64,000 nucleotides of DNA from Hungatella sp. (lineage in GTDB: Bacteria; Bacillota; Clostridia; Lachnospirales; Lachnospiraceae). The notes below the pieces were generated by a model. It was not told the DNA's origin and did not search any database. It was given only the letters and a program-made list of their open reading frames with translations. The stretch spans positions 1 through 64,000 of the forward strand of contig JAAWBS010000014.1 in assembly GCA_022792815.1 (NCBI GenBank), in the 5' to 3' direction. The first letter of the stretch is position 1; the number at the start of each line of letters is the position of its first letter. The translations under genes were made by a program, and so were the position numbers. Of this stretch, positions 24,919-35,075 are shown piece after piece.

Positions 24919-27570
24919 TCACCATCTGTTTTTGATCTTTCCCTGAATCCGGCTTAAGATATTGAGGGCTTCCATGGGCGTGATCTCGTTGATCTGAATA
25001 CCCTCGATCTCCTTCATGATATCGTCGCTTTTTACGGTGTCAAACAGGGTCATCTGATTTAAATCCACCTCGTCCGGTTTGGGGATGGCCTTCTTCGCCG
25101 GCGCGGCAGTGTTCTGCTGGGCGATCTCCCTGGCCCGCGTGGTGATGTCGGCGCTGCTCAGCTCCTCCACCAATTCCTTGGCCCGGTCGATGACCGGCCC
25201 GGGAACTCCCGCCAGCTTGGCCACCTGGATGCCGTAGCTCTTGTCCGCTCCTCCCTTGACGATCTTGCGCAGAAATACGATGTCATCTCCCTGCTCCTTC
25301 ACGGCGATACAGTAATTGTTCACACCGCTCATGGTGCCTTCTAACTCCGTCAGTTCATGGTAGTGGGTGGCAAACAAGGTCTTGGCTCCCAGGATCCTGG
25401 GGTTGCTGATGTGCTCCACCACGGCCCAGGCGATGGACAGCCCGTCGAAGGTGCTGGTGCCTCTGCCGATCTCGTCCAGGATGATCAGGCTGCTTCGGGT
25501 GGCATTGCGCAGGATATTGGCCACCTCGGTCATCTCCACCATGAAGGTGCTCTGTCCGGAGGCCAGATCGTCGGAGGCCCCCACCCGCGTGAAGATCCTG
25601 TCACAGATGCCGATGTCCGCCTCGTCCGCCGGGACGAAGCTGCCGATCTGAGCCATGAGAACGATCAGGGCGGTCTGGCGCATGTAGGTGGATTTGCCTG
25701 CCATGTTGGGGCCGGTGATGATGGAGATCCGGTTCTTGGAGTTGTCCAACATCGTGTCATTGGACACGAAAAGATCATGGTTTAACATCAGCTCCACCAC
25801 CGGATGCCTGCCGTTTTTGATGTGGATCGCCCCCTTCTCGTTGATCCTGGGCTTTATGTAGTTGTTTCTGGTTGCCACCAGGGAGAGGGAGGCAAAGACA
25901 TCGATTCCAGCCAGCGCTTTGGCGCTCTTCTGAATCCGCCCTACCTGGGAGCCGATCCGGTCCCTGACCTGGCAAAACAGGTCGTACTCCAGGGAAAACA
26001 GCTTGTCCTCTGCCCCTAGGATGATATCCTCCAGCTCTTTTAACTTGTCCGTGGTGTACCGCTCTGCGTTGGCCAGGGTCTGTTTGCGGATAAAGTAGTC
26101 AGGCACCATATCCTTAAAGGAGTTAGTCACCTCAAAATAGTATCCGAACACCTTGTTATACTTGATCTTTAAATTCTTGATCCCCGTCTTGTCCCGCTCC
26201 TCGGCCTCCAACTGGGCCAGCCAGGTCTTTCCCTCGGTCTTGGCGCGGCGCAGCTTGTCCGCCTCCTCATGGTAGCCGTCCTTGATGATGCCCCCCTCTT
26301 TTACGGCGATGGGCGGGTCGTCTATGACAGAAGCCTCGATCAGCCCAAAAAGATCCTCCAGGGGATCCAGATCCTCGTAAAACTGTCTCAGCAGAGGGGC
26401 GTTCATCTCCGAGAGCAGATGTTTCACATGGGGCAACATCTTCAGAGAATTCTTGAAGGAGATCAGATCCCTGGGATTGGCGGACTTGTAGCTGATCCGC
26501 CCCATGAGACGCTCCAGGTCATAGACCGCGTTTAAGTACTCCCGGATCTCCTCTCTGGTGATGTAATTCATATTCAGCTCTTCGACGGCATTCTGGCGGT
26601 CCAAGATCGCCGACTTTTTCAGAAGAGGCTGTTCGATGAGGGTACGAAGATACCTAGCTCCCATGGCAGTCTTCGTCTTGTCCAGGACCCACAGAAGAGA
26701 GCCTCTCCGCTGCTTCTCTCTCAAAGTCTCCAAAAGCTCCAGGTTCCGCCGGGTGGAGGTGTCGATGATCATAAATTCCCCGGTGGAGTAGGGAGTGATG
26801 GTGGCGATGTGGTCCAGGGTATTTTTCTGGGTCTCGTACAGGTATTCCATCACGGCTCCGGAGGCGATGACTCCGGCATCATAGTCCTCCAACCCCAGCC
26901 CCTTTATGCTTCCCACGTGAAAATGTTCTCTCAGCACCTTCTTGCAGGACTCATCGGAAAAATAGTGGTTGTCCAGGGCCGAGATGGCCACTTGGTATCT
27001 GGCCTTCAGATCCTCCAGATCGATGCCGCACATGTAGAACGCCTCGTTGCAGATGATCTCCGACGGGGAGAACTTGTGGATCTCATCCAGCAGGTTCCGC
27101 TCTCCCTCCACCTCGGTCACCAGATAGTCCCCGGTGGTGATATCGCAGGCAGAGACTCCGAAGACATCCCCCACATAGACGATGCCCATCAGATAGTTGT
27201 TCCTGGTCTCATCCAGAGCCTGGCTGCTGGTAATGGTTCCCGGTGTCACCACGCGGATGACCTCCCGTTTTACCAGTCCCTTGGCCTGCCGCGGGTCCTC
27301 CATCTGCTCGGCGATAGCCACCTTGTAGCCCTTCTGCACCAACTTGTACAGGTAGGAATCCACGGCGTGGTAGGGGATCCCGCACATAGGCGCCCGCTCC
27401 TTGAGGCCGCACTCCTTTCCCGTCAGTGTGATCTCCAGCTCCCTGGATGTGGTAATGGCGTCCTCGAAAAACATCTCATAGAAATCTCCCAGCCGGTAAA
27501 ATAAAAGGCAGTCGGGATACTGCTTTTTGGTCTCCATATAATGAACCATCATCGGCGACAATCCTGCCAT
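24919..27570 (-). CDS. mutS: DNA mismatch repair protein MutS
   Basis: The 883-residue protein has the mismatch-binding N-terminal motif (YRLGDFYEMFFEDA, with the Phe-x-Glu wedge at FYE), then connector, lever and clamp domains, and the ABC-type ATPase: Walker A GPNMAGKSTYMRQ, DEIGRGTSTFDGLSIAWA (Walker B) and FATHYHELTEL. The end QGKIKNRW is preceded by a short dimer helix-turn-helix part. ATG 27570 has AGAGG eight bases upstream. A hairpin upstream separates it from miaB. Confidence 0.98.
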   Translation of the reverse strand: MAGLSPMMVHYMETKKQYPDCLLFYRLGDFYEMFFEDAITTSRELEITLTGKECGLKERAPMCGIPYHAVDSYLYKLVQKGYKVAIAEQMEDPRQAKGLVKREVIRVVTPGTITSSQALDETRNNYLMGIVYVGDVFGVSACDITTGDYLVTEVEGERNLLDEIHKFSPSEIICNEAFYMCGIDLEDLKARYQVAISALDNHYFSDESCKKVLREHFHVGSIKGLGLEDYDAGVIASGAVMEYLYETQKNTLDHIATITPYSTGEFMIIDTSTRRNLELLETLREKQRRGSLLWVLDKTKTAMGARYLRTLIEQPLLKKSAILDRQNAVEELNMNYITREEIREYLNAVYDLERLMGRISYKSANPRDLISFKNSLKMLPHVKHLLSEMNAPLLRQFYEDLDPLEDLFGLIEASVIDDPPIAVKEGGIIKDGYHEEADKLRRAKTEGKTWLAQLEAEERDKTGIKNLKIKYNKVFGYYFEVTNSFKDMVPDYFIRKQTLANAERYTTDKLKELEDIILGAEDKLFSLEYDLFCQVRDRIGSQVGRIQKSAKALAGIDVFASLSLVATRNNYIKPRINEKGAIHIKNGRHPVVELMLNHDLFVSNDTMLDNSKNRISIITGPNMAGKSTYMRQTALIVLMAQIGSFVPADEADIGICDRIFTRVGASDDLASGQSTFMVEMTEVANILRNATRSSLIILDEIGRGTSTFDGLSIAWAVVEHISNPRILGAKTLFATHYHELTELEGTMSGVNNYCIAVKEQGDDIVFLRKIVKGGADKSYGIQVAKLAGVPGPVIDRAKELVEELSSADITTRAREIAQQNTAAPAKKAIPKPDEVDLNQMTLFDTVKSDDIMKEIEGIQINEITPMEALNILSRIQGKIKNRW

Positions 27571-27604
27571 GTTGTAAACCTCTCTTCTTTGAAGTAAAAA
27601 CTAT

Positions 27605-27632
27605 GAAAACTCCCGAAACAAGTTCGGGAGTA
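27605..27632 (-). terminator. Hairpin terminator or attenuator between miaB and mutS
   Basis: ACTCCCGAA pairs perfectly with TTCGGGAGT around a five-base loop. On the minus strand it is followed by TTTTC. The short T-tract suggests partial termination, with some read-through from miaB into mutS-mutL-miaA, where no separate promoter was found. Confidence 0.65.
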
Positions 27633-27663
27633 TCTTTGGTAAGTCTGGGGGAACCGCCCCGGC

Positions 27664-29115
27664 TTACCGGCTGGCGGCGGTTCCCATATAGTAAAATCCT
27701 TTGGACTCCTCCAGATAGACCGGGACGATGCTTCCGATCAGGGAGGAATCTCCCGGGAAATGCACCACTGTGTTGTTGTCCATGCGGCCGGTTACATAGC
27801 CGTCCAAGTGGCCGTCCACGGTCTCTACCAGCACCTCCCTTGTGGTGTGAAGGTCCCTGGCGCAGACCTCGGAAGAGATCTGCTGCACTCTGGTAAGCAG
27901 CCGGTCAAACCGGTCCTTCACCACCTCCTCCGGCACCGCCCCCTCCATGGAAGCCGCCGGAGTCCCGGTTCGCCTGGAGTAGATAAAGGTGAAGGCGCTG
28001 TCAAACCGCACCCGCTCTACCACATCCATGGTCTCCAGGAAATCCTCCTCACTCTCCCCGGGGAAGCCCACGATGATGTCCGTGGTCAGGGAGATATCCG
28101 GCACTGCCTCCCGGATTCTCTCTACCAGCTCTAAGTACTGTTCCTTGGTGTATCTTCGGTTCATAACCTTTAAGATCCTGGTACTTCCCGACTGGACGGG
28201 AAGATGAAGGTGATGGCAGATCTTCGTTGACTCCCTCATCACCTGAATCAACTCCTCCGACAGATCCTTGGGGTGGGAGGTCATAAACCGGATCCGGCGC
28301 AGACCCTCGATCTCCTCAATCTGACGCAGCAGCTGTGCGAAAGTGACCGGGTGTTCTAAGGTCTTTCCGTAGGAGTTTACATTCTGACCCAGAAGCATGA
28401 CCTCCACCACGCCTTCTGATACCAGTTTTTGCAGCTCCGCCAGGATGTCCTCAGGCTGTCTGCTTCTCTCCCGGCCTCTGACGTAGGGGACGATACAGTA
28501 GCTGCAGAAATTGTTGCAGCCAAACATAATGTTGACACCGGACTTGAAAGGGAATTTCCGTTCGGTGGGAAGCTCTTCCACGATCTGATCGGTGCCGTCT
28601 AAGATGTCTACGATTCGATTCTTCTGTTCCAGTCTCTGACAGATCAGTTCGGCCAGCTTGAAGATGTTGTGGGTTCCGAACACGATATCCACAAACCCAT
28701 AGCTCTTTTTGATCTTCCTCACCACATCCGGTTCCTGCATCATACAGCCGCACAGGGCGATGAGCATGTGAGGATTTTTCTTTTTTAAGGTGTTCAGATA
28801 GCCAAGGCGTCCGTAGACCTTCTGGTTGGCGTTCTCTCTCACGGTACAGGTGTTGTAGAGGACGAAATCCGCCTTCTCATCCTTGGCCTCCCGAAAGCCG
28901 ACCTGAGTCAGGATGCCCTGGAGTTTCTCGGAATCACGGGCGTTCATCTGGCAGCCGAAGGTCTGGATGAAGGCGGTGGGGCGACATCCGTTTTTCTGTT
29001 CCAATGCCCGGACCCATTCCCGGCATTTTGCCATGAAATAATATTGGCGTGCCGGTTCTTCTGTCGGCGGATCCGAACTTATGTCAAATTTATCCAAATC
29101 AATTTCATTATACAT
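27664..29115 (-). CDS. miaB: tRNA-2-methylthio-N6-dimethylallyladenosine synthase
   Basis: MiaB is a radical-SAM enzyme that thiomethylates i6A37 of tRNA. The 483-residue protein has an N-terminal domain with three cluster-binding Cys (TFGCQMNARDSEK, NTCTVRENA, ALCGCMMQEP), the radical-SAM triad CNNFCSYCIVPYVRG, and a C-terminal TRAM domain ending near IPVYLEESKGFYYMG-like sequence. Its partner miaA lies in the same gene run. ATG 29115 has only a weak ribosome site (AAGAAAG). A promoter at 29199-29227 drives it. Confidence 0.97.
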   Translation of the reverse strand: MYNEIDLDKFDISSDPPTEEPARQYYFMAKCREWVRALEQKNGCRPTAFIQTFGCQMNARDSEKLQGILTQVGFREAKDEKADFVLYNTCTVRENANQKVYGRLGYLNTLKKKNPHMLIALCGCMMQEPDVVRKIKKSYGFVDIVFGTHNIFKLAELICQRLEQKNRIVDILDGTDQIVEELPTERKFPFKSGVNIMFGCNNFCSYCIVPYVRGRERSRQPEDILAELQKLVSEGVVEVMLLGQNVNSYGKTLEHPVTFAQLLRQIEEIEGLRRIRFMTSHPKDLSEELIQVMRESTKICHHLHLPVQSGSTRILKVMNRRYTKEQYLELVERIREAVPDISLTTDIIVGFPGESEEDFLETMDVVERVRFDSAFTFIYSRRTGTPAASMEGAVPEEVVKDRFDRLLTRVQQISSEVCARDLHTTREVLVETVDGHLDGYVTGRMDNNTVVHFPGDSSLIGSIVPVYLEESKGFYYMGTAASR

Positions 29116-29298: not shown

Positions 29299-30405
29299 TC
29301 AGCCCATCACCAATTTCCCTTTAGCCCACCCCAGCAGCTCATCCAGTTCTTCATAGACCGCCCCGCCTTTTTGCGGATTCAGGGTACAGACTACCTGCCG
29401 GCAACCCTCCATCAGCGCTCTTGCCCGGCCCTTCTCCTCCTCCGTGACCCTGCCGAATGCCCTGACGCTGACGACCTCGGAGGCCAGCATGGAAGCCGCC
29501 GGATAATCCAGATCATTTTCCCACAAAATTCCGGTGGCAAAAGGGATGTCATCCCGTTGCAGTCTGCGATACACTGCCGTCCCCGTCCCATTGCCGCCTA
29601 GGACAAACACCTCCGGCTGACCCGCCGGTCCTGGCAGCTCTAAGGCCCCTGTACTCTCGTCAAAACACCCCTCTTCCAGGCCATAGAGCTCTGTGATATA
29701 GCTCGGCACAAAGATTTCCTCCGGTGTCCCCAGCCGAACCACCTGATCTTTTTGGATGCAGGCAATCTTGTGGGAGATCCGCCTTGCCAGATCCAACTCG
29801 TGGAGGGACATGATCACGGTGAGCCCCTTTTTCCGGGCCATGTCCTGGAGCACAGAGAGAAATTCCAGCTTGTAGCGAATATCCAGAAAGGATGTAGGCT
29901 CGTCCAGCACAAGGACCTTAGGTTCCTGGCTGATAGCCCTCGCCAGCATAACCCTCTGCCGCTGCCCGTCGCTGAGACGGGTAAAGTCAAGCTCTCCCAA
30001 GTCTCCCACCCCGACCAAATCCATAGCTTCCTCCACCACCTGCCGGTCATGCTTTGTCAGCAGGCCGAAAGGGCCGGTGTAAGGATATCTGCCGGTAGCC
30101 ACCACCTCCCTGCTGGTCATCATCTCCGTCCTCAGGCGCTCTGTCAAAAGGATGGCCAGGGTTCTGGCCATGTCCTGGCCTGACATGGATTCCAGATCCC
30201 TTCCCTCCAGATACACGGTTCCCCCAAGAGGCTCAAGCCGCCGAAGAATACTCTTTAAGACAGTGGTCTTGCCGGCCCCGTTGGGCCCGATGAGAGTCAG
30301 AATCTCCCCTCTGTTTAGGTCAAAATCTACGTCCCTCACCAAGGGCTTTCCGTCATATCCCACCGTCAGAGACCGCACGGCAATGGTACAGCATGTCCTT
30401 TCCAT
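29299..30405 (-). CDS. btuD: ABC transporter ATP-binding protein, cobalamin/iron-complex type, with C-terminal extension
   Basis: The ATPase of the riboswitch operon. Residues 1-250 are an FecE/BtuD-type domain with Walker A GPNGAGKTT, the signature LSDGQRQRVMLARA, Walker B VLVLDEPTSFLD and the switch His in MSLHELD. About 110 further residues follow, starting PEVFVLGGNGTGTAVYRRL and containing WENDLDYPAASMLASEVVSVRAF; they look like a separate small Rossmann-like domain not needed for ATP hydrolysis. ATG 30405 has GGAGGGAG upstream and lies one base after btuC. Cobalamin or a related corrinoid/tetrapyrrole is the substrate suggested by the riboswitch, not by the protein itself. Confidence 0.88.
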   Translation of the reverse strand: MERTCCTIAVRSLTVGYDGKPLVRDVDFDLNRGEILTLIGPNGAGKTTVLKSILRRLEPLGGTVYLEGRDLESMSGQDMARTLAILLTERLRTEMMTSREVVATGRYPYTGPFGLLTKHDRQVVEEAMDLVGVGDLGELDFTRLSDGQRQRVMLARAISQEPKVLVLDEPTSFLDIRYKLEFLSVLQDMARKKGLTVIMSLHELDLARRISHKIACIQKDQVVRLGTPEEIFVPSYITELYGLEEGCFDESTGALELPGPAGQPEVFVLGGNGTGTAVYRRLQRDDIPFATGILWENDLDYPAASMLASEVVSVRAFGRVTEEEKGRARALMEGCRQVVCTLNPQKGGAVYEELDELLGWAKGKLVMG

Positions 30406-30406
30406 C

Positions 30407-31420
30407 TCACATCTCCCTCCTTCTCTTGATCATGACCAAGATGACCACCGGAGCGCCGAACACCGCCGTCACAGTGCTGATGCTCAGCTCCCTAGGCGCC
30501 AGAAGGAGCCTGGACAAAAGATCGCACAGCAGGCAGAAAACTCCTCCTCCCAGCACACAGGCCGGGATCATAACTATAGGCCGAACCGTCCCCAGCAAGC
30601 ATTTTACCAGATGGGGAACCGCGATTCCCACAAACGACACCGGACCGGCAAAAGCGGTGACACAGGCTGATAGGATACTGGACAGTCCCACCAATACAGC
30701 CCGAAACTGTCTCACGTCCAACCCCATATTCCCTGCATAAGTCTCGCCCAGGCTGTAGGCGCCTATGGGCTTGGACAGCAGAAACACCAAGAGAAATGAG
30801 ATCCCCGACACCGCAGCCATCACCGCCACATGGTCCCAGCCGATTCCGGAAAAACTGCCCTTGGACCAGTTGTGCAGGTTTACAATATCCGCATCGTCAG
30901 CAAAAGCCACCACAAAATCTGTGATGGCAGAACAGATATACCCAATCATCACCCCGCTTACGATCAACATGGACATAGCATCCACAATTCTGGACATCCA
31001 CATGACGATCCCCATAGACAAAAGCGCACCCAAAAACGCGGCCCCGATCATGGCACCAAACCCGGCCGCCCGGCCGCTTCCAAGGCAGACCACCATCACC
31101 AAAGCCACGAAAAGCCTGGCGCCGGAGGATATCCCCAGAGTGAAGGGACCGGCAATGGGATTGTGGAAAAAGGTCTGCAGAAGATACCCGGAGAGGGCCA
31201 GGCTTCCTCCCAAAATCATGGCTGCCAGAGCCCGGGGAAGCCGGATCTCACTGACGATATCCCGAAAAACCGTATCTGCCCCTCTCCCTCTTACAATGGA
31301 GCATACCTCCCTGAGAGGGATGTCTACACTCCCGATGCAGACATTGGCCATGAGGAACAAAAGATTCAGACTAAACAGGCCAGCCAGTGCCAGCCTGCAG
31401 CGTTTCTTTTCATATCCCAT
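30407..31420 (-). CDS. btuC: FecCD/BtuC-type ABC transporter permease
   Basis: The 337-residue protein has about ten hydrophobic segments and typical FecCD motifs: RLPRALAAMILGGSLALSGYLLQTFFHNPIAGPFTLGISSGA near residue 60-100, and GPVSFVGIAVPHLVKCLLG near residue 265. This family imports cobalamin, haem and siderophore complexes with a BtuF-type binding protein. ATG 31420 has AAAGGAG five bases upstream. Confidence 0.93.
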   Translation of the reverse strand: MGYEKKRCRLALAGLFSLNLLFLMANVCIGSVDIPLREVCSIVRGRGADTVFRDIVSEIRLPRALAAMILGGSLALSGYLLQTFFHNPIAGPFTLGISSGARLFVALVMVVCLGSGRAAGFGAMIGAAFLGALLSMGIVMWMSRIVDAMSMLIVSGVMIGYICSAITDFVVAFADDADIVNLHNWSKGSFSGIGWDHVAVMAAVSGISFLLVFLLSKPIGAYSLGETYAGNMGLDVRQFRAVLVGLSSILSACVTAFAGPVSFVGIAVPHLVKCLLGTVRPIVMIPACVLGGGVFCLLCDLLSRLLLAPRELSISTVTAVFGAPVVILVMIKRRREM

Positions 31421-31433
31421 TGAGACTCCTTTC

Positions 31434-32582
31434 CTATGTAAGAGGGTAGAAATAGACCAATTCCTCCCCCTTCTGTGTCAGAATCTTATGGAGATCAGAG
31501 ATGATCACCCCCAGCTCCATGGAAGACTGATACAAATTTTTAGCGGTGCAGTACACATTTCCCTCCTGAACCGCTCGGAAATTTCCAAGCAATCTGTTTT
31601 TCTCCAACAGCTCCTCCAGAGAACCCAGTTCACTGTCCACGGCGCTGTTGTAGATGAGGTAATCCGCCTCTTTTGCCGTCTGATAGAACTCTTCCATCTG
31701 CACCGTCATGGAAGATCCCCCGCTTTCCTTTCCGCTACCGCCAGGCGCCAGATAGGTTCCCCCTGCCAGCCGGATCATCTTCGCGAGATAGTCGGATGGT
31801 TTGCGCACATTGACGGCTCCGCCTCCGGTCACATAAAAAAACGCCACGCTCTTTCCGCTTTTTGTGCCCGTTGCCTCCACTGTCTGGAAGGCTTCCTCCT
31901 GGACGCGAAATGCCTCCATAGCCTTCTCCTCGTTTCCTGTCAAAAGCCCGTAGCATTTCACCCACTCAGTCCGCCCCAGAGGCTCCTCCTCATAGCTGGA
32001 ATGGTCCACCAGAACCGGGATCTCAAAGCGCTCCAGCTGCTCCTTCACCTCAGGCGAGTGGTAGATCATGGTATTTTCCACCGCAAGACCGCAGTGCTCT
32101 GCCAAGATCCGCTCATAATCCGGAGCGCTGTAATTGCCGGCATAGAGGATCTCCCCTTCATCCATGGCTCTCCTGGCCTCCTCGATGTACCATCCGTCCG
32201 GTTTTGTGCCGGAAAACCGGATAGAGGCCAGACTGTCCATGGCCACAAACATGTCCATGACAGCAGAGGCCACCAAGTAGATGTTTTCGACGGGCTGCCT
32301 CAAAGAGACGATATCAGGCTTTAACCCTCCTGGAACCGGGGCCCCCTCGGGGATGATCAGAAACCGATCCTCATCCTCTTCTATGGTGAGCAGGGCGTAT
32401 CCTCCCTCATAGTAATCCACGGAAAACTGTTTGGCATAGGCAAGATCCATGCTGTGGGTATAGGTGAGCTCCGGGCTGATCTTCCTAGCCTCCTCTTTCC
32501 CCTGTCGGCCTTTTGCCTGACAGGACACCAGAAAGAGAATTGCCAGAAAACACAACCCTGGCCATGCAATTTTCCTCCTCAC
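31434..32582 (-). CDS. btuF: Substrate-binding lipoprotein of the BtuF/FecB type
   Basis: The 382-residue protein has a lipoprotein signal ending in FLVSC (Cys about 21) and the two-lobe layout of helical-backbone binding proteins: LRQPVENIYLVASAVMDMFVAMDSL in lobe one and FFYVTGGGAVNVRKPSDYLAKMIRLAGG in lobe two. It starts at GTG 32582, overlapping the stop of the NEAT-like gene as GTGA, with GGAGGGG seven bases upstream. It would deliver the substrate to BtuC/BtuD. Binding-site residues cannot be assigned to cobalamin or haem by eye. Confidence 0.88.
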   Translation of the reverse strand: MRRKIAWPGLCFLAILFLVSCQAKGRQGKEEARKISPELTYTHSMDLAYAKQFSVDYYEGGYALLTIEEDEDRFLIIPEGAPVPGGLKPDIVSLRQPVENIYLVASAVMDMFVAMDSLASIRFSGTKPDGWYIEEARRAMDEGEILYAGNYSAPDYERILAEHCGLAVENTMIYHSPEVKEQLERFEIPVLVDHSSYEEEPLGRTEWVKCYGLLTGNEEKAMEAFRVQEEAFQTVEATGTKSGKSVAFFYVTGGGAVNVRKPSDYLAKMIRLAGGTYLAPGGSGKESGGSSMTVQMEEFYQTAKEADYLIYNSAVDSELGSLEELLEKNRLLGNFRAVQEGNVYCTAKNLYQSSMELGVIISDLHKILTQKGEELVYFYPLT

Positions 32583-33643
32583 AGGTCAGCCCCTCCTCTT
32601 TTTTTCTTTCTTCGAAGCAGGTGACCTCCCACTGCCATTGCCGCCACCGCTGCTCCTCGAGCCCACGGTCCCCAGCCCACAAAATCTGTATTCGACTCCC
32701 GTGTTATCTCTGCCGTCGAATCCTCCGAAATCGCCGCCGCAGAGTCCAAATGAAAGGTAAGCTGGTATTCCACCTCGTGAGGAGTGCTCATTGCTATGGT
32801 GTCCCCGATCACAATCATAGGCCGGTCAAACACCACCACCGGAATCTCAAAGACAGAGAAGTCCTCCCCTTGCACCGGAAGGTAGGTTTCCTCCCCTACC
32901 CTGACGTAATCATAGTTGGGGCTCGTAAAGACGAGCCTGGCCCAGGACTTCCCCTCCTTTACGGTGAGAACTGTCGGGGAGACCACCTTCGTTCTCCCCG
33001 TTCCTCCAAAAAAGTCAAGCTCAATGGAGTATTCTCCGTCCAAAAGAGCGGTGTCCGCCGGCTGATCCCCTTCTCCGGCCGTCTCCTCTTCCTCTCCGGA
33101 CTGTGCCATGGCCGAAATCCTCTTCTCTCTTTCGTCCCTTTTCAGCTGCTCATAATCCGGCAGAGGTACCAGCACTGCCTCCCTAGGCAGACTCTCCGCC
33201 CGAAACAGGATCTGCCTGTCATACCACTTCTCCTTTTTTTTACTAAAAGCCGCACAGGCCATGGGCTGATCCAGAGCCTCCACGGGAACCGTGTAGGTGT
33301 ATCTGCCGTCCTCTCCCTCCTCATATCCGATATAGTCAGACTCCTCTGCCGCTGCCTCCTTGGTGCCCATAAACAGCGCCAAGTATCCGGTTCCGCTCAA
33401 AGTGAGATCCGCCGTCATCACATGATCCTCCACGGTCAGATAAGCCTCCTCCACCCGGAACATAGAGGAGCTGGACTCCACACTCACCTGGTAGACACCG
33501 TCCTCCACATCCGTGCCATAGATGGGACTCATCCCCTCCACTCCCACCCTGTCGGCCTTCACCTGCTCGTCATCGGAAGCCGTCTGCCCGTAAGAAACCG
33601 CAGAGACCAGCAAAACCCAAAGGAGTACTCTCATCCGGATCAC
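32579..33643 (-). CDS. Membrane-anchored protein with two NEAT-like domains
   Basis: The 354-residue protein has an N-terminal signal (VLLWVLLVSAVSYGQ), two beta-rich domains of similar plan (about 46-150, DGVYQVSVESSS; and 200-300, DGEYSIELDFFGG), an acidic linker between them, and a C-terminal hydrophobic anchor (about 325-343) with a RRKKKRGG tail. Each domain runs from a DG-Y start, through a VxxxxxxAxLxxS-like strand and a P-Y segment, to a paired Y/F strand, which resembles NEAT domains that bind haem on Gram-positive cell surfaces. The NEAT haem-ligand pattern (S-x4-Y, Y-x3-Y) is not clear, so haem binding is doubtful. GTG 33643 overlaps the cbiK stop and has GGGAGG six bases upstream. 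The family is inference; the layout and position are seen. Confidence 0.65.
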   Translation of the reverse strand: MIRMRVLLWVLLVSAVSYGQTASDDEQVKADRVGVEGMSPIYGTDVEDGVYQVSVESSSSMFRVEEAYLTVEDHVMTADLTLSGTGYLALFMGTKEAAAEESDYIGYEEGEDGRYTYTVPVEALDQPMACAAFSKKKEKWYDRQILFRAESLPREAVLVPLPDYEQLKRDEREKRISAMAQSGEEEETAGEGDQPADTALLDGEYSIELDFFGGTGRTKVVSPTVLTVKEGKSWARLVFTSPNYDYVRVGEETYLPVQGEDFSVFEIPVVVFDRPMIVIGDTIAMSTPHEVEYQLTFHLDSAAAISEDSTAEITRESNTDFVGWGPWARGAAVAAMAVGGHLLRRKKKRGGADL

Positions 33644-34653
33644 CGAAGACCTCCCACGGCCTCCAGAACATGGTCTACATAGATATCCCGGATCGCCTCT
33701 GACTGTCCCAGACCCTCAAGGACGCACTCCACCTCATAGCCTTTTTGGGTGAGTACCGTCTTCCAGGAATCCTCCTCATCACCTGCCATATCATTGTTGG
33801 CGTGATCCCCGGCCACCACCATGAGAGGTTTGAGAACCACCTTCTTGTAGGTGCCCTTTTCCTCCAACGCGCGGGCCACGTCATCCAGTGCCGGCTCTGC
33901 CTCCACCGTGCCTACATAGTAATGGTCGAATCCCTCCTCTGCGAGGGTGGTCTGCATCCTCTCATACACCTGATTGGACCTGGCCTCTGTCCCGTGTCCC
34001 ATAAACACTATGGCCGTCTCCCCATCGTCAAAGGATCGGGTATCCGCCGTGATGGCCTCTGCCACTGCCTTAAAATCTTCTTCTCCGGTCAGAAGCGGAG
34101 CTCCCACTAAGATCTGGTCAAAGAGATCTCTGTACTCCTCCAACTCTGCCATCACATCCTGGTACTCAAACCCGTCCATCAGGTGGGTGGGCTGGATCAC
34201 CAGATTTTTGATCCCGTCGGCTGCTGCTCTATCCAGAGCCTCAGTCACATTGTCGATCTCAAGGCCATCCCGCTTTTTTAAGATGTCGATGATGGTCTGG
34301 GCCGTAAATGCCCTGCGCACCTCATACTGGGGACAAGCCCGGGCGATGGCTTCCTCCACTGCTCCGATCGTAACGTCCCGGCTGTCATTGTAGCTGGTTC
34401 CAAAGCTCACCACAAGGATGGCGGTATCTGATATGTTCTGATGCTCTTCCATAGTACTCTCCTTTGTCTTCTTCCCTGACACCTGGGACGGCCCTTTCTC
34501 CTCTGGTTGTGTTACGGTGTCCCTGGATGTCTCCCGGCCCAAATCGCCGGCCCCGGCGCTCTGTTCCACGTCTACCTTCCCGCAACCCTGGCAGGCAGTC
34601 AGAACTGCCGCCGCCAATGCCGCTACCAGTAATGCGGATGCTCTTCTCTTCAT
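33640..34653 (-). CDS. cbiK: Exported sirohydrochlorin cobaltochelatase-like lipoprotein (CbiK family)
   Basis: CbiK inserts cobalt into sirohydrochlorin in anaerobic cobalamin synthesis. This 337-residue protein has a CbiK core with all three expected metal-site residues: His220 (FMGHGTEARSN), Glu251 (VGTVEAEP) and His284 (VAGDHANNDMAG). Unusually it starts with a lipoprotein signal, LLVAALAAAVLTAC, with the lipid Cys at residue 21, followed by a disordered linker to about residue 75, so it should act outside the cytoplasm. A periplasmic CbiK (CbiK-P) that also binds haem is known from Desulfovibrio vulgaris. ATG 34653 has GAGGAGG about eight bases upstream. It is the first gene after a cobalamin riboswitch and overlaps the NEAT-like gene by four bases. 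Confidence 0.88.
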   Translation of the reverse strand: MKRRASALLVAALAAAVLTACQGCGKVDVEQSAGAGDLGRETSRDTVTQPEEKGPSQVSGKKTKESTMEEHQNISDTAILVVSFGTSYNDSRDVTIGAVEEAIARACPQYEVRRAFTAQTIIDILKKRDGLEIDNVTEALDRAAADGIKNLVIQPTHLMDGFEYQDVMAELEEYRDLFDQILVGAPLLTGEEDFKAVAEAITADTRSFDDGETAIVFMGHGTEARSNQVYERMQTTLAEEGFDHYYVGTVEAEPALDDVARALEEKGTYKKVVLKPLMVVAGDHANNDMAGDEEDSWKTVLTQKGYEVECVLEGLGQSEAIRDIYVDHVLEAVGGLR

Positions 34654-34737
34654 GTTGCTTCCTCCTCGTATGATTTGATGGATTGCCAAGGTCTGCGGCC
34701 CCGGCTTCTGCCATACGCCTCCAGGAAAATCTCAACA

Positions 34738-34766
34738 CGAAAAAAGGTTCCTTAATTAGGAACCTT
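34738..34766 (-). terminator. Riboswitch-controlled terminator before cbiK
   Basis: AAGGTTCC and GGAACCTT pair around a seven-base loop, followed on the minus strand by six or more T. It lies between the cobalamin aptamer and the cbiK start, the position of an expression platform, so bound cobalamin would favour termination. Confidence 0.85.
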
Positions 34767-34849
34767 CCCGCATACGACAACGCAAAGCTTTCTGATCAAA
34801 GAAAAACTGCATCATCATTATTGGTACACTTTCACAGGAAGCGCCAACA

Positions 34850-35015
34850 TAACAGGCCAAGCAGGTTTCCTGGCTTACGGCTCCTTGCTCTCCTGCGCCT
34901 TCTCATGCTTAGCATAATGGCATTCTGCAGGATCGCTCCCCGCTCACAGTGACCGGATCGCCCGGGACTTTCACCCGGTTCTCTTTTACCCGACTTCGTA
35001 AAGCCGGCACTTGAC
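34850..35015 (-). ncRNA. Cobalamin riboswitch (aptamer)
   Basis: On the minus strand the leader contains the B12 box AGCCAGGAAACCTGC (34861-34875), the paired GCCGGCTTTACGAAGTCGGG-like entry, a CCGGGTGAAAGTCCCGGG segment and TCACTGTGAGCGG, the order seen in cobalamin riboswitches. The aptamer limits are approximate. Together with the downstream terminator it should switch the operon off when cobalamin is abundant. The 434 bases between cbiK and the serine hydrolase hold this RNA, its terminator and its promoter, and no gene. Confidence 0.95.
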
Positions 35016-35046
35016 CATCTATGAAATTTTGGTTGATACCCTATTT

Positions 35047-35075
35047 ATTGTAAAGGGAATCTACAGAAATGTCAA
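35047..35075 (-). promoter_or_regulatory. Promoter of the cobalamin-riboswitch operon
   Basis: On the minus strand TTGACA (35070-35075), 17 bp and TACAAT (35047-35052), close to consensus. Transcription would start near 35040, just ahead of the aptamer. Confidence 0.85.

Follow-up and report, generated by a model that had tools for sequence, protein, structure and literature searches.

A cobalamin-riboswitch operon joining an exported CbiK, a NEAT protein and a BtuFCD-type importer: a candidate surface route for B12 ring precursors in Lachnospiraceae

The cobaltochelatase CbiK normally works in the cytoplasm, and a periplasmic form, CbiK-P of Desulfovibrio vulgaris, also binds haem; we know of no operon of CbiK-P with a NEAT protein and a BtuFCD importer. 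A further exported form is FetB (PDB 9b86), which we take to be the same protein as IhtB. The Iht system of Porphyromonas gingivalis (IhtABCDE), as presented in the portion of the source drawn on here, combines the lipoprotein CbiK (IhtB) with an ATP-binding cassette (ABC) importer and a TonB receptor, and is regarded as a means of acquiring haem or iron (PMC10913741). Here we analyze an operon on the minus strand, at positions 29299..35075, of a 64,000-nucleotide window of contig JAAWBS010000014.1 from Hungatella sp. (Lachnospiraceae, a family frequent in the gut), the window being the whole stretch of DNA under study. Like Iht, it joins a lipoprotein CbiK to an ABC importer. In a Gram-positive cell a TonB outer-membrane receptor is not expected; Iht, in contrast, belongs to a Gram-negative bacterium, has such a receptor, and is described in that portion of its source with no NEAT protein named. 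An exported CbiK beside an importer is thus already known; the role proposed below for the present operon is unusual and testable. No description of a system composed of an exported CbiK, a NEAT protein and BtuFCD was found in the open-licence literature, preprints being outside the scope of the search.

Two other groups of described systems bear on the operon. The Isd haem relay of Gram-positive bacteria (IsdH/IsdB/IsdC) has tandem NEAT domains like those of the second operon protein, as judged by fold match, and Isd proteins hand over their ligand to a binding protein and an ABC importer. The operon is unlike Isd in its cobalamin switch, its CbiK partner, its linkage to cbi genes and the occurrence of a histidine, His289, in place of the axial tyrosine (alignment by eye); the motif carrying the haem axial tyrosine of NEAT proteins is YxxxY. 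The corrinoid importer BtuFCD shares with the operon the same gene types and the ATPase extension seen in PRK09536; the operon's version differs in its links or fusions to CbiK, NEAT and CbiD, and its predicted ligand would be an earlier intermediate than a corrinoid. In the accessible part of one account of the pathway, sirohydrochlorin receives cobalt from CbiK or CbiX and the product passes to CbiL (PMC7242693). Shelton et al. (PMC6461909) recognized 180 tetrapyrrole precursor salvagers, mainly Firmicutes, which keep the corrin pathway while the early genes are missing; among the salvager types a dependence on 5-aminolevulinic acid was shown experimentally, and the sections of that paper available to us do not name a protein by which ring-sized precursors would enter the cell. 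A rumen study, to the extent that its text was accessible, lists one bacterium with 0/5 early steps but 8/10 corrin steps, and another in which a cobaltochelatase accompanies BtuFCD, and it repeats the statement that this enzyme transports sirohydrochlorin as well (PMC12654859). These precursor salvagers resemble the genomes described below whose only CbiK is exported, in that both keep the corrin pathway without early tetrapyrrole genes.

From the sequences we favor, with a probability of roughly 0.55, a role of the operon as a cobalamin-repressed surface route for such a precursor. When cobalamin is low the riboswitch would permit expression of the operon, and the lipoprotein CbiK, facing outward from the membrane, would bind a metal-free isobacteriochlorin left by other bacteria, the candidate ligand being sirohydrochlorin (factor II) or factor III, which is sirohydrochlorin methylated at C20. 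CbiK would insert cobalt outside the cell, the cobalt-tetrapyrrole would pass by way of the two NEAT domains to BtuF, and BtuCD would import it for conversion to cobalamin by the cbi enzymes inside. The ligand, the insertion of cobalt outside and the order of the hand-over are the elements that we infer. Capture of a tetrapyrrole at the cell surface had been put forward in a first-pass annotation of this DNA, and as an idea it is supported, as are the exported CbiK, the NEAT protein and the cobalamin control described there; of the three ligands suggested there, cobalt sirohydrochlorin fits best, a corrinoid is the rival weighed below, and haem fits worst.

The operon is headed by a promoter (TTGACA-17-TACAAT; 35047..35075, minus strand, as are all features of the operon) that matches 11/12 consensus positions, promoter-like sites in the region numbering 2 against a shuffle mean of 0.7. 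A cobalamin riboswitch aptamer follows (34843..35029), which scores 115 bits with the covariance model RF00174, above the gathering threshold of 31.5, and covers model positions 1-189 of 189. Between it and cbiK lies a terminator hairpin with a U run (34740..34768, bounds from the fold; -17 kcal/mol, z -4.3), which was equalled in stability by 0/200 shuffles. The five genes code for a predicted exported (lipoprotein) CbiK-type cobaltochelatase of 337 amino acids (33640..34653), a membrane-anchored protein with two NEAT domains (32579..33643), a BtuF-type substrate-binding lipoprotein (31434..32582; PF01497, 2e-26), a BtuC-type permease (30407..31420; closest NCBIfam model BtuC PRK03784, at a score under the cut-off) and a BtuD-type ATPase with a C-terminal extension of ~110 amino acids (29299..30405; best NCBIfam model PRK09536, below its cut-off). 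They are joined by two 4-base overlaps, one 13-base gap and one 1-base gap, and none of them apart from cbiK is a cbi gene. The promoter, aptamer, terminator and five packed genes noted at first pass are thereby confirmed. In the genome of origin (3.8 Mb, 73 contigs, 89% complete) this aptamer is the only RF00174 match and the operon CbiK the only PF06180 match.

The window CbiK is matched by both the CbiK fold and the family profile. Its H220, E251 and H284 align with H145, E175 and H207 of Salmonella CbiK, presumably the cobalt ligands of that enzyme, and the three positions are invariant in 30/30 aligned exported CbiKs. The closest structures include CbiK-P (2xvx, 2xvz) and FetB, the window protein being nearer by E-value to Salmonella CbiK and FetB than to CbiK-P. 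We infer that it would insert cobalt into sirohydrochlorin.

Exported CbiKs prove to be widespread in the family. In a sample of 150 Lachnospiraceae genomes, all absences in which rest on draft genomes, CbiK occurs in 84/150, at 108 places, whose surrounding regions were all examined except for one short fragment (G063:C96). Sorting by the N-terminus with a loose lipobox pattern identified a lipobox in 44 exported CbiK genes and a plain signal in 2 (L035, L112); 1 more, cut by the contig start (L123), is counted as exported on clade membership. Exported CbiK is thus present in 47/150 genomes, the window's included, 17 of which also have a cytoplasmic CbiK; 37 further genomes have the cytoplasmic kind only. 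The exported proteins form one clade (support 98) with one signal-less member within it, L125, whose genome (G062) is without HemC. A B12 box stands within 1 kb upstream of 39/46 exported cbiK genes (L123 has no upstream sequence) versus at most 5/58 cytoplasmic ones, 2 of these 5 matches being poor. Likewise, the Rfam aptamer precedes the operon in 10/11 loci from genomes lacking HemC, the eleventh (L067) having only 119 bases upstream, and in L108 it precedes a NEAT gene that stands before cbiK; at 10 cytoplasmic CbiK loci the aptamer is directly upstream in 0 and lies 1.2 to 3 kb upstream in 5.

When the NEAT alignment was run against 84,980 species genomes, at least 586 relatives were recovered among the 597 matches listed, and 80 named loci were examined. 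They contain 60 CbiK genes followed by BtuF (not counting those truncated by the start of a contig), with a B12 box upstream in 53/57, and the CbiK is exported in 59 of the 60 (58 by script, L176 by eye). The exception is L208, where a signal-less CbiK precedes a NEAT gene. The first-pass annotation had regarded signal-less homologues in the same context as telling against its view; export thus holds nearly throughout, and apart from L208 the departures are L101 (G063), L111 (G008) and L127 (G077), where signal-less CbiKs adjoin BtuF, BtuC or BtuD genes and no NEAT gene is present. A single frame in L111 holds both CbiK and CbiL. Many exported CbiKs (L102, L105, L119 and others) have ~60 extra amino acids between the signal and the chelatase domain; this insert, AADxVAALIDAIYVQ...AWDALTDAQKELV, is helical by look and is not found in the window CbiK.

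The NEAT domains of the second protein lie at about residues 47-150 and 199-303 with a helical linker between them, and W140-Y141, Y244-D245 and Y293 are invariant. PF05031 scores 17.6 bits on the window protein against a gathering threshold of 32.8; across the family 55/63 members match it at E<=0.1 (best 3.5e-11), and a PDB search with the NEAT profile returned three NEAT chains, none significant. The protein has the NEAT fold, matching haem-binding Isd proteins, as the first-pass annotation had expected of a NEAT-like gene. The alternative that the gene is not NEAT was rejected on the profile hits among relatives and the fold matches. Domain 1 keeps WY141, and domain 2 has PHExxY with His289 in 53/63 members, the register being judged by eye. 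BtuF has no relative in the PDB by sequence at E<=0.01. The BtuD extension alone (window positions 29302-29658) matches PRK09536, a corrinoid ABC transporter ATPase, at 5.4e-5. A binding protein, a FecCD permease and an ATPase thus stand in one operon as in BtuFCD, at scores below the equivalog cut-offs.

Exported CbiK is closely associated with corrin synthesis. CbiD is present in 46/47 genomes with exported CbiK versus 41 of the other 103. In 16 carriers the operon and CbiD are on one contig, and in 13/16 (not in G013, G102 and G138) CbiD follows the operon on the same strand at a distance of no more than 20 kb. In the clusters of G131, G100, G080 and G004 the operon continues straight into cbi and cob genes, which were named by Pfam for 7 proteins and otherwise by reading. 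We also found fusions of CbiK to NEAT, of NEAT to BtuF, of BtuD to CbiD (G004) and of BtuD to CbiP (G100), which suggest a relay from the chelatase through the NEAT protein and the importer to the corrin enzymes. The source genome carries its own cbi cluster on a different contig, C59, where a single frame encodes CbiD and CbiL; the other genes there were named by reading. The proposal that the operon fits scavenging better than de novo synthesis is hence not sustained, given this cluster, the near-universal CbiD and the four operons that run into cbi genes; capture of a precursor that feeds corrin synthesis is the likelier job.

A second association concerns what these genomes lack. Among the 87 CbiD-bearing genomes, HemC is absent from 23/30 whose only CbiK is exported versus 8 of the remaining 57 (p 1e-8 by Fisher's test), and 48/50 with a cytoplasmic CbiK have HemC, the match being weak in one of the 48 (G008). 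In the 23, HemB is found in 0, SUMT in 3 and precorrin-2 dehydrogenase in 4, such that 19 have none of HemB, HemC, SUMT and precorrin-2 dehydrogenase (HemA and HemD were not searched for); these 19, of the 30 exported-only genomes, keep CbiD. With the early genes missing, these species would need an external supply of the ring, as sirohydrochlorin or a later intermediate. A CbiX working inside was considered and rejected, as 87/88 CbiX places are CbiK genes and the remaining one, in G084, is a weak match; for the same reason the exported CbiK is the only class II chelatase found in the 23 genomes, CobN not having been searched for. The only known chelatase of these genomes is one whose predicted orientation is outward. 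The source genome has CbiD, SUMT and precorrin-2 dehydrogenase; HemB and HemC were not found in its 3.8 Mb, 89% complete assembly.

Several observations weigh against the proposed precursor route. CbiL is also absent from 12/23 HemC-minus genomes (G009, whose match falls 0.75 bits short of the cut-off, is treated as CbiL-bearing), so these 12 could not manage with cobalt sirohydrochlorin alone: either the ring that enters has its C20 methyl group in place, as in factor III, or some other enzyme installs this group. HemC is present in 24/47 genomes with exported CbiK, which means that the system is not restricted to truncated pathways and serves full producers too. Seven HemC-plus genomes (G002, G029, G037, G049, G083, G119, G147) have the exported CbiK only and also have precorrin-2 dehydrogenase, and would thus make sirohydrochlorin internally without a known class II chelatase inside. 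Conversely, 6 HemC-minus genomes with CbiD are without any CbiK. If genomes are not split by cytoplasmic CbiK the link weakens, exported CbiK occurring in 19/25 CbiD-bearing genomes that lack all four markers versus 27/62 others (p 0.009). Phylogenetic control is weak: HemC changes 13 times by parsimony among the exported proteins in the best CbiK tree, many forks of which are unsupported, and independent pairs number 2 on well-supported branches and 10 on unsupported ones. The source genome is 89% complete, and its SUMT and precorrin-2 dehydrogenase genes are kept at a contig start. Finally, HemC is present in 8/8 genomes tested from the nine nearest named loci (L158-L166); among 50 of the 80 named genomes, chosen for the HemC test before the result, it occurs in 21/33 with the BtuFCD module and 15/17 others. 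The source genome's SUMT and precorrin-2 dehydrogenase pair (L138:325-1733, contig C55) is without the HemC-SUMT-HemD-sized frames of several relatives.

The principal competitor, possible though in our estimate considerably less probable than precursor capture, is a plain corrinoid importer for cobinamide, cobyric acid or a cobamide, with CbiK and the NEAT protein acting as corrinoid receptors devoid of chelatase work. The cobalamin riboswitch, the absence of further cbi genes from the window operon, and the best match of the ATPase, C-terminal extension included, to a corrinoid ABC transporter ATPase model are all as it would predict. It does not, however, account for the invariance of the three cobalt ligands in 30 exported CbiKs, for CbiD in 46/47 carriers, which late corrinoid salvage would not need, for the BtuD-CbiD fusion, or for the loss of early tetrapyrrole steps, far more frequent in exported-only carriers than in other CbiD-bearing genomes. 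An Isd-like or Iht-like acquisition of haem, in which the NEAT protein and CbiK take haem, perhaps remove its iron, and pass it to a BtuFCD-like importer, is suggested by the NEAT fold match to haem-binding Isd proteins and by the presence among the closest CbiK structures of CbiK-P, said to bind haem, and FetB, haem-binding by its entry name. We consider it unlikely because the switch in most loci responds to cobalamin rather than iron, the operon is linked and fused to cbi genes, and CbiD co-occurrence is near-total.

Two further explanations appear about as unlikely, or slightly more so. Full producers might export their own metal-free ring through an ABC-2 pump, have cobalt inserted outside and take the product back. 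The ABC-2 permease does occur in 6/150 genomes, each of which has HemC and an exported CbiK; in L158 and L160 the operon is flanked by divergently oriented cbiL and pump genes, and the 7 HemC-plus genomes with exported CbiK only would be explained; however, the 6 pump genomes also have a cytoplasmic CbiK, no pump is found in the source genome or in those 7, and the HemC-minus carriers are left unaccounted for. Least probable, by a small margin, is a cobalt scavenger, in which exported CbiK holds cobalt or strips it from tetrapyrroles and a complex of the metal is what the importer takes in. The cobalt-ligand residues are kept, and cobalt importers are often under the control of cobalamin switches, but a ring ligand is what one would expect of paired NEAT domains with a BtuF-type importer, and the link to missing early tetrapyrrole genes would be unexplained.

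The ABC-2 pump belongs to a second module found in some loci, which consists of cbiL, an ABC-2 ATPase and permease, in many cases together with a cytoplasmic CbiK and a further NEAT protein, as in L208. It occurs in L208 (L208:4425-14232), L182, L189-L192, L200, L221, L227, L229 and L231, and on the opposite strand in L158-L163, L165, L172 and L185; its cbiL was read in L158, L160 and L208. In the family sample the permease matches in the 6 genomes are at 63-83% identity, and all 6 genomes have HemC, CbiD and both kinds of CbiK; distant matches (24-28%) occur in two further genomes, and none in the source genome or in the 7 HemC-plus exported-only genomes. The permease is present in 21/80 named loci, including, on the opposite strand, the window's six nearest relatives; in L158 and L160 cbiL, ATPase and permease follow in this order, divergent from the exported cbiK operon. 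All 21 belong to the 50 named genomes tested for HemC, which is found in 20/21 with the permease versus 16/29 without it in the stretch examined (p 0.003, an after-the-fact split). The notion that CbiL always adjoins the pump was rejected, this being so in 1/18 CbiL-bearing regions (G013) among 20 examined; cbiL lies beside the pump in 3/6 pump genomes (G013, and by coordinates G081 and G140) and in L158, L160 and L208. The NEAT proteins also differ with context. Those beside BtuF have His289 in 58/60 cases, with one tyrosine and one not parsed, and the L208 fusion, which adjoins both BtuF and the pump, could not be parsed and is left out of the count. At position 289, full-length NEAT proteins that follow the pump in the same orientation show Val, Leu or Ile in all parsed cases. 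In L200 and L229 a further upstream NEAT protein has His, as do those of L165 and L172, which diverge from the pump; L185 (second copy), L194 and L237 have a NEAT protein without His289. The module may serve the release of a precursor.

This raises the tentative possibility that B12 ring precursors are traded at the surfaces of gut bacteria, with cobalt inserted outside the cell. The ABC-2 pump beside cbiL and a NEAT protein would let an isobacteriochlorin out of producers, most likely factor III as made by CbiL, and species without the first half of the pathway, often without CbiL, would take it up by exported CbiK, His289-bearing NEAT proteins and BtuFCD. This extension gains some weight from the pump beside the operon in the nearest relatives and from HemC in 20/21 of the tested pump-bearing genomes. 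In P. gingivalis, the available part of one source reports the genes from precorrin-2 to cobalamin as present and precorrin-2 as not made (PMC4410737). This half pathway, together with Iht, fits the same precursor role with other partners in a Gram-negative bacterium; if the trade is real, the Iht/FetB "haem" system would be recast as one for uptake of a B12 precursor, which would explain the half pathway.

More generally, the operon may explain how some gut bacteria can finish B12 without starting it, and it offers a concrete, widespread candidate for the entry route of ring-sized precursors in salvagers, such that the question of precursor entry becomes testable. If the proposed route is correct, one biosynthetic step of B12, the insertion of cobalt, would be located outside the cell, and ring precursors would join the goods that gut bacteria may share. 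One genome-based vitamin scheme, in the part of it accessible to us, starts the producer pathway at CbiK/CbiX (PMC6593275); a species that lacks the early genes and whose sole CbiK is exported could then be counted among the full producers.

Directly downstream of the operon, on the same strand (24919-29115), lie mutS-like and miaB-like genes, which show no sign of being part of it.

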